A DNA stretch of 50,004 nucleotides from Paracoccaceae bacterium. GTDB lineage: Bacteria > Pseudomonadota > Alphaproteobacteria > Rhodobacterales > Rhodobacteraceae. Made by a program: the position numbers and the translations under genes. Position 1 is the first letter of the stretch. Every line of letters starts with the position of its first letter. Of this stretch, positions 39,300 through 41,468 are shown one piece after another. Below the pieces are notes generated by a model, which saw only the letters and a program-made list of their open reading frames with translations, did not search any database and had not been told where the DNA came from. The DNA lies in contig JAGRDO010000040.1 of NCBI GenBank assembly GCA_020447005.1, positions 57,874 through 107,877 of the forward strand. Reading direction: 5' to 3'.

Positions 39300-41468
39300 A
39301 TGTCAGCGCCAGGCGAACGGGAAAGCCCCAAAGACAACGGCGGGGCCTTCGTTGACAGTCCGGTCGCATCTCTCGATCCCGGGGCGGCCAAGGCCGAAAT
39401 CGATCGGCTGACGGTTGAGGTCACGCAGGCGAACCACGCCTATCACGGCGAAGACGCACCTGTGCTTTCCGATGCCGCCTATGACGCGCTGAAACGCCGA
39501 CTTGCAGAATTAGAGACGCGCTTCCCAGACCTCAAGCGCAGCGACAGCCCGACCGAAAGGGTCGGCGCGACCCCTTCGGAGACCTTTGACAAGGTTTCGC
39601 ACAGGGTCAGGATGCTCAGCCTCGAAAATGCGTTCGATGCCGGCGAGATTGACGAGTTCGATACGCGCATCCGGCGCTTTCTCAACCTCGATGCCGGCGA
39701 GGATCTGACCTACACGGCCGAACCGAAGATCGACGGGCTTTCACTTTCCTTGCGCTATGTCGAAGGGGTGCTGGTTCAGGCCGCCACGCGCGGCGATGGC
39801 GAGACCGGCGAAAACGTCACCGCGAACGCAAGGACGATCCGGGATATTCCGAAAAGCCTGCCCGGTGCCCCGGCGGTGCTGGAGGTTCGCGGCGAAGTCT
39901 ATATGGGCCACGATGAGTTTCAGGACCTGAACGCGCGCCAGACCAGGGAAGGCCTGAAGACCTTTGCCAATCCGCGCAATGCCGCCGCGGGGTCCCTTCG
40001 CCAGCTTGACGCGGGAATAACGGCGGCGCGCCCCTTGCACTTTTTCGCCTATGCCTGGGGTGAGATGTCCGAGCCGCTTGCCGACACGCAGTTCGGCGCG
40101 CTCGACCGGTTGGCGGCATTCGGCTTTCAAACCAATCCGATGACCCGTGAATGCAAGGGGACGGTCGCGCTTCTTGCGGCCTATGCCGAGGTCGAACAGA
40201 AACGCGCGACGCTCGGCTACGACATCGACGGGGTGGTCTACAAGGTCAACTCCCTCGCGCTTCAGCAAAGGCTTGGCTTTCGTTCGACCACACCGCGTTG
40301 GGCGATCGCCCACAAGTTTCCGGCCGAACTGGCCTGGACGCGGCTGGAAAAGATCGAAATCCAGGTCGGCCGGACCGGCGCGCTTTCACCGGTGGCCCGG
40401 CTTGCGCCGGTCACCGTCGGTGGCGTCGTTGTCTCCAACGCGACCTTGCATAATGAGGATTACATCGCCGGACGCGATGCGAAGGGCAACCCGATCCGCG
40501 GCGGCAAGGACATCCGCGAGGGCGATTGGGTGCAGGTTTATCGCGCGGGGGATGTCATTCCAAAGATCGCGGATGTCGATCTGTCAAAGCGGCCCGAGGA
40601 CGCGCGCGCCTTCGATTTCGCGACCGAATTGGCGCGTTTGGGACTGCGCGGCCTTCGCCCCGAGGGTGAATCGGTCTGGCGCCTGGCCGAGGGCCAGATC
40701 CCGCCGGAGGTCGCCATTGAGCGCCTCAACCATTTCGTAAGCCGCGGCGCGTTCGACATCGAAGGGCTTGGGCCAAGGCAGATCGAGATGTTCTATGCCG
40801 ACGATACGCTGCCCATCCGCGAACCGGCCGATATTTTCACGCTTGCCCGCCGTGACGCCCGGAACCTGAGCCGGCTGAAAAACCGCGATGGTTTCGGCGA
40901 ACGTTCGGCAGGAAATCTATTCCAGGCCATCGAGGACAGGCGGAAGATTTCGTTGAACCGCGTGATCTTCGCGTTGGGCATCCGGCATGTCGGCGAAAAC
41001 GCCGCCAATCTTCTGGCACGCCATTATGGCAGCTGGACCGCATTCCACCACGCGATGATCAGCGCCGGGGCCGGCGAGGGTCCGGCATGGGACGACCTGC
41101 TGGCGATCGACGGGGTAGGTGCGGTGATGGCTGCGTCCCTTGTCGGCACCTTCGCGCAGGCAGCCGAACGCGCGTCAATCGAGCGGCTGGCGGAGGAACT
41201 TGACGTCGAGGACAGTCGTCGCCCCATGACCGAGGGAAGCCCCGTCGCGGGCAAGACGGTGGTGTTCACCGGTACGCTTGAAAAGATGACGCGCGCCGAA
41301 GCCAAGGCCCGCGCCGAAGCGCTTGGCGCCAAGGTCGCCGGTTCGGTTTCGGCCAAGACGGATCTGGTGGTGGCCGGTCCGGGGGCAGGGTCCAAGGCAA
41401 AGCAGGCCGAAGCGCTTGGTATCGAAATGATCGACGAGGATGCCTGGCTTCGGTTGATCGGCGCATGA
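39300..41468 (+). CDS. ligA: NAD+-dependent DNA ligase LigA without zinc-finger cysteines
   Basis: The replicative ligase, 722 residues: an NAD-binding Ia domain, the adenylation domain with nucleophile lysine K143 (EPKIDGL), the OB fold, zinc-finger position, helix-hairpin-helix repeats (about 500-600) and a C-terminal BRCT domain (about 640-722, with [19 protein letters not shown]). The oddity is the zinc finger. The positions equivalent to E. coli C408, C411, C426 and C432 are L444, L447, L462 and P468, with identical spacing (3, 15 and 6). The surrounding [20 protein letters not shown] still aligns with the canonical WRC...ICPAQAVERL. Other frames show no cysteine block, so it is not a frameshift. 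GGAGGAATCC precedes the ATG. Its stop overlaps recG. Confidence 0.95.

Follow-up and report, generated by a model that had tools for sequence, protein, structure and literature searches.

NAD-dependent DNA ligase (LigA) is an essential enzyme and serves as a drug target; nearly all of the LigAs that we sampled contain a zinc finger with four cysteines (C4 finger). Whether the zinc of this finger can be dispensed with is a question raised by the ligA gene in a stretch of 50,004 nucleotides (the window) from a Paracoccaceae bacterium of the family Rhodobacteraceae (assembly GCA_020447005.1, contig JAGRDO010000040.1, positions 57,874 to 107,877 of the forward strand), in which, according to an earlier note, all four finger cysteines are replaced. 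We found the whole finger exchanged at equal length, and the window LigA is, judged from its sequence, a real and functional-looking LigA variant, probably metal-free, of a kind found in two or more separate lines of the family. The canonical LigA finger keeps the OB fold and the helix-hairpin-helix (HhH) domain placed while binding DNA (review PMC5052709; this and the other papers cited are drawn on in excerpt). Haloferax LigN lacking its zinc-binding, HhH and BRCT domains retained adenylation, but ligation was abolished (PMC1684257).

Replacement of the C4 Finger in the Window LigA

The gene and the parts of it discussed below are, in window coordinates:

39300..41468, + strand, ligA, NAD-dependent DNA ligase of 722 amino acids (NF005932, TIGR00575, Pfam)
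39582..40328, + strand, adenylation domain PF01653, residues 95-343 (Pfam, over cut-off)
40338..40601, + strand, OB fold PF03120, residues 347-434 (Pfam, over cut-off)
40605..40733, + strand, replacement module in the place of the C4 zinc finger, residues 436-478 (2owo alignment, column table, identity drop)
40629..40631, + strand, codon of L444 (TTG), equivalent to E. coli C408 (2owo alignment)
40638..40640, + strand, codon of L447 (TTG), equivalent to E. coli C411 (2owo alignment)
40677..40679, + strand, codon of W460; W in 14/14 rows of the genus g45, R in 98/101 canonical rows (column table)
40683..40685, + strand, codon of L462 (CTG), equivalent to E. coli C426 (2owo alignment)
40701..40703, + strand, codon of P468 (CCG), equivalent to E. 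coli C432 (2owo alignment)
40959..41180, + strand, HhH domain PF12826, residues 554-627 (Pfam, over cut-off)
41241..41456, + strand, BRCT domain PF00533, residues 648-719 (Pfam, over cut-off)

The phmmer alignment of the window LigA with E. coli LigA (PDB 2owo) had no gap over the finger, and it confirmed the earlier claim that L444, L447, L462 and P468 stand at C408, C411, C426 and C432 with the spacing of 3, 15 and 6 residues retained. Where the window has TTG, TTG, CTG and CCG, its genus mates use TGC or TGT. More than the four cysteines is affected: about 40 residues (roughly 436-475) were swapped in frame and without any insertion or deletion, both knuckle prolines (441 and 445) were lost and a tryptophan (460) was gained. 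In the merged LigA alignment these prolines were found in 100 and 99 of the 101 canonical rows, and in 0 of the 15 cysteine-less rows. All 101 canonical rows, which overlap the genus and named sets described below, carry the four cysteines; 96 of them are distinct, five named rows being duplicates of genus rows. Loci L114 (four cysteines) and L138 (cysteine-less) did not pass the motif filter and so are counted neither among the 101 canonical rows nor among the 14 g45 rows.

Mean identity to genus mates was 0.87-0.88 over residues 391-435, 0.30 over residues 436-465 and 0.82 over residues 481-510. The helix propensity of residues 440-450, on a scale where lower values are more helical, was 0.33 for the window, 0.40 for g45 and 1.07 for canonical LigAs, and the hydrophobic fraction of the module was 0.42, 0.41 and 0.32, respectively. 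The five other frames of residues 425-490 contain stray cysteines at most and no C4 block, in agreement with what the earlier note had said of the other frames. A frameshift or artefact was rejected on these grounds and on the gapless 2owo alignment. GC content by codon position was 0.78/0.53/0.80 for residues 436-475 and 0.68/0.48/0.75 for the whole gene, a profile typical of coding sequence.

The window LigA scored over the cut-offs of both NCBIfam equivalog models (NF005932, 783.6 bits, cut-off 369; TIGR00575, 697 bits, cut-off 444.45). PF03119, the C4 zinc finger, was not found in it by a Pfam scan up to E = 10, while the same scan detected PF03119 in LigA of the genus mate Defluviimonas aestuarii. 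The finger is dispensable for these curated models. Domain Ia (PF22745) was under cut-off in the window LigA (24.4 of 27) and likewise in a canonical genus mate (21.9). The catalytic lysine motif KxDG is present as KIDG at residues 143-146, and K143, E195, K315 and K339 are invariant across the 116 rows of the merged alignment. C285 is the single cysteine of the protein; the median is 5 in canonical rows, and the g45 LigAs counted contain 0-3.

Over the 642 sites that exclude the module, LigA distances to the outgroup L033 were 0.245 for the window, 0.243 for L031 and 0.232 for L032, and the corresponding RecG distances were 0.284, 0.278 and 0.256. With the finger exchanged, the LigA body diverging about as recG does and the other domains intact, the change looks like focal replacement and not decay.

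A Second Cysteine-less Lineage

LigA was matched in all 20 genomes of another genus, g45. The module was readable in 19 of these, and the four cysteines were absent in 19/19. The earlier note had ascribed the metal-free finger to the lineage of the window. This does not hold for its own genus, where the window genome is the only cysteine-less one among the 20 genomes with LigA, but it does hold for g45. The g45 modules follow the pattern FDFxxKLxxxGIxGxRxxGDAVWRY, with one cysteine elsewhere in the module in row L130, and ten of the 43 module positions do not vary among 11 g45 segments and the window. G065, a g45 genome in a single contig and 100% complete, has an intact cysteine-less LigA that is 62% identical to that of the window. 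Among six close g45 LigAs the ratio of nonsynonymous to synonymous substitution rates (dN/dS) was 0.125 for the module and 0.080 for the body; the g45 module is kept under purifying selection where measured.

A hidden Markov model (HMM) of 14 g45 modules, built with the window excluded, gave the window 41.9 bits, while the 101 canonical fingers reached at most 32.3 (median 23.8), placing the window module nearer to the g45 profile than any canonical finger. With an HMM of canonical fingers the window scored 15.9, g45 7-16 and the canonical rows 80-111 bits. Both lineages left the canonical majority at 23 positions and carried the same new residue at 8 of them, where three null models, all of which ignore structural constraint, predict 1.7-2.0 (P about 1e-4).

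The ligase bodies told a different story. In the body tree the window was placed inside its own genus with full support (Shimodaira-Hasegawa-like approximate likelihood ratio test, SH-aLRT, 100), and a clade of the window with g45 was rejected (approximately unbiased test, p-AU 6.5e-5; log-likelihood difference 113). In the module tree, built from 44 columns, the window joined g45 (SH-aLRT 99), and a tree holding it with its own genus had a p-AU of 0.297. The highest module identity between the window and any g45 row was 50%. The modules of the window and g45 agree beyond chance though the ligase bodies are not sisters, which implies that either both lineages converged on one solution or the module was exchanged.

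Cysteines in Relatives

The genus search covered 22 genomes and gave a LigA match in 20, with none in G011 and G013. Besides that of the window, the genus LigAs have four cysteines in 20/20 copies (19 genomes and a second copy in G007), as do 80/80 named Rhodobacteraceae LigA loci. Close relatives with four cysteines, together with sequence errors at the site, were what the earlier note had named as evidence against its claim; the relatives do keep the cysteines, but the replacement does not look like the work of read errors.

In a family survey with about one genome per genus, PF03119 was over cut-off in 384/394 genomes, these fingers being taken by score and not read singly. Among the ten genomes below cut-off, G000 and G065 are cysteine-less, G053, G192, G253 and G293 gave no LigA match, G029, G167 and G218 have LigA pieces that exclude the finger, and G227 has unread bases at the finger. 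G180 has unread bases within the finger and cysteines on both sides of them, while G323, G402, G110 and G301 have four cysteines. An HMM of 12 cysteine-less modules matched 216 of 389 relatives, with G065 at 94.1 bits and the window at 72.0, both members of its training set, and the next at 36.0, below which matches were taken by score and not read singly. No relative of the replacement module turned up in a viral collection.

In a sample of the phylum, PF03119 was matched at E <= 1e-4 in 362/396 genomes. The 34 without a match comprise that of the window, 19 that were read and 14 that were left unread. All 20 LigAs read (from the 19 PF03119-negative genomes and from G501, which matches) retain four cysteines, in most cases as a CPCP-type variant. 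This C4 finger (L181-L200), found in several alphaproteobacterial families and missed by PF03119, has its first two cysteines two residues apart and a longer loop. The order of G529 matched PF03119 at E <= 0.01 in 87/148 genomes, 17 of them over cut-off. Of the 61 without a match, 41 were left unread; the set read consisted of 19 of the 20 listed negatives plus five weak matches. LigA was obtained from 23/24 of this set (G953 gave none), and together with L200 from G529 four cysteines were found in 24/24. As the LigAs read keep their cysteines in 20/20 and 24/24 cases, absence of PF03119 alone is proved to be a poor sign of cysteine loss, and surveys should not equate a PF03119-negative result with lost cysteines.

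In five genus mates (L016-L020) the HhH region of LigA is extended by an insert, charged and rich in alanine, that measures some tens of residues and lies between the positions matching window residues 589 and 596. The insert is absent in the window, L005 and L112.

Gene Neighbourhood and Number of Ligases

The genes on either side of ligA are:

38459..39172, + strand, response regulator, upstream (Pfam PF00072 and PF00486), which we take to be CtrA-like
41465..43552, + strand, recG, downstream (Pfam RecG domains)

The position of ligA between the response regulator and recG is as in relatives, and a like response regulator gene precedes ligA in L112 too. In G065 a like response regulator gene lies before ligA and the following genes after it. 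By Pfam family, the core genes around ligA encode the response regulator, RecG, Omp85 and LpxA-/LpxI-type proteins, and further MnmA-type, GidA-type and gyrase A-type proteins.

In the window genome, at its 91% completeness, PF01653 matched one gene and PF01068 none, and G065 likewise has one NAD ligase, with no PF01068 match and no other ligase found. The second ligase that the earlier note had offered as a possible backup was thus not encountered, and the window LigA is probably the only ligase of the cell. In G007 a second LigA on contig 3 (L022, L029), about 59% identical and with four cysteines but a broken frame, lies beside an intact LigA.

Proposed Role of the Module and Alternative Explanations

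We consider it likely that the window LigA is an ordinary, and probably the only, replicative ligase, whose C4 finger has given way to a metal-free mini-module of equal length that does the same mechanical job. The module would act as a brace for the OB fold and the HhH domain, enabling the enzyme to clamp nicked DNA. The first zinc knuckle, FPxxCPxCGS, would have turned into a short amphipathic helix, FDFAxxLxxxGI, and L444, L/I449, W460 and L/Y462 may form a small hydrophobic core instead of the zinc with its four cysteines, with a short helix and strand around that core. Such a cysteine-less protein would bind no zinc and would still ligate. The metal-free module is supported by the lack of cysteines in combination with a module of the same kind, at a dN/dS of 0.125, under purifying selection in a second lineage; to this extent the suggestion of the earlier note was upheld, as a reading of sequence.

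Some observations weigh against this reading. The window genome is 91% complete in 196 contigs, which bears on the claim of an only ligase, and the genus mate G013 is 98% complete and yet without any LigA match, so draft genomes do miss genes (G192, a draft rated 91% complete, likewise gave no LigA match). A PF01068 protein, of the ATP-dependent ligase type, was found in 2/10 g45 genomes checked (G421 and G423; loci L210 and L209), and stops or frame breaks were found in three g45 LigAs (G419, G415 and G428), all from draft genomes. The form of the module seen in the window is carried by one genome only and therefore allows no measure of selection. The window end branch is also long in the body tree, 0.32 compared to 0.06-0.08 for its three nearest sisters. 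RecG has the same excess (window to L032 0.201 against L031 to L032 0.137; for LigA 0.209 against 0.159), and the long branch is therefore a property of the lineage rather than of LigA.

The origin of the module can be explained in two ways. There is an even chance that the finger was lost twice and that the same hydrophobic solution arose twice because the fold allows few. The unchanged length fits this, as do shared features that would be expected to count (L444, W460, absence of prolines), and the window departs from the g45 majority at 15 of the 23 changed positions, three of the four old cysteine positions among them. Some of the steps are single-base changes (R to W, and C to Y in g45), but the C to L steps are not, and the identical new residues at 8/23 positions speak against convergence as far as nulls blind to structural constraint can. 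Partial gene conversion into ligA from a cysteine-less donor related to g45 is a serious but somewhat doubtful candidate. It would account for the conflict between body and module trees, for the g45 HMM score and for the coincident new residues. Against it, the module tree rests on only 44 columns and does not reject the window with its own genus, no donor was sampled since the best g45 module identity is 50%, and long branches are in play. A broader form of exchange is put forward more tentatively still: the LigA finger might be an exchangeable cassette with zinc and metal-free forms of equal length, the metal-free form having entered a vertically inherited essential ligase by intragenic recombination.

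It is improbable that the window copy is a dispensable paralogue that drifts while a canonical ligA or another ligase lies in the missing part of the genome. The incompleteness of the genome, the second, broken LigA of G007 and the PF01068 proteins of two g45 genomes would allow it, but the copy keeps its conserved place between the response regulator and recG, its body is intact, and no other ligase was found in G065. A sequencing or assembly artefact is scarcely credible. The contigs are from a draft and no reads were seen, yet read errors are not expected to produce a replacement that is in frame, of the same length, with normal GC by codon position and resembling the module of an independent genus. 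Zinc economy as the driver of cysteine loss, as proposed for zinc-free ribosomal proteins, is unlikely. The order of G529, one of small genomes (1.0-1.5 Mb) and possibly SAR11, keeps four cysteines in the 24/24 LigAs read, which means that a shortage of zinc in sea water is no general explanation, and the 80/80 named relatives keep them too. The ordinary ligase with a metal-free module remains the reading that we prefer.

Comparison with Known Systems

The window LigA shares length, domain order and catalytic residues with E. coli LigA, as well as the gapless alignment of the finger region, but it lacks the four zinc cysteines and both knuckle prolines, and about 40 residues are replaced. Wolbachia wBm-LigA is reported to be active without a zinc-binding tetracysteine domain (PMC3397958). 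The excerpts describe no conserved replacement module for it, and the likeness is one of description, not of sequence. The report may also rest on a domain search, and PF03119 misses many four-cysteine alphaproteobacterial LigAs. E. coli LigB is an NAD ligase with an incomplete tetracysteine motif; it is reported to lack two of the four cysteines and BRCT, to have <1% of LigA activity in vitro and to be a second ligase (PMC5507437). The window protein is not of the LigB type, as it scored 143.3 bits with NF005987 against a cut-off of 498 and has a BRCT domain. Ribosomal proteins such as S4 occur in zinc and zinc-free (C-) forms with a history of transfer (PMC3087516). As in the window LigA, zinc cysteines have been lost from an essential protein, but these are not ligases and both forms are found within some genomes.

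Among the matches listed in a search of open-licence PMC papers, with most subscription papers outside it, there was no cysteine-less Rhodobacteraceae LigA and no conserved replacement module. The g45 LigA finding and its look-alike module are new here.

Altogether, that g45 lives with a cysteine-free finger suggests that zinc in LigA acts as a brace that can be replaced, rather than as a requirement, and at least one single-contig cysteine-less genome (G065) has no other ligase found. Natural LigA pairs with and without the cysteines would permit a clean test of the role of zinc in stability, redox sensitivity and zinc economy.
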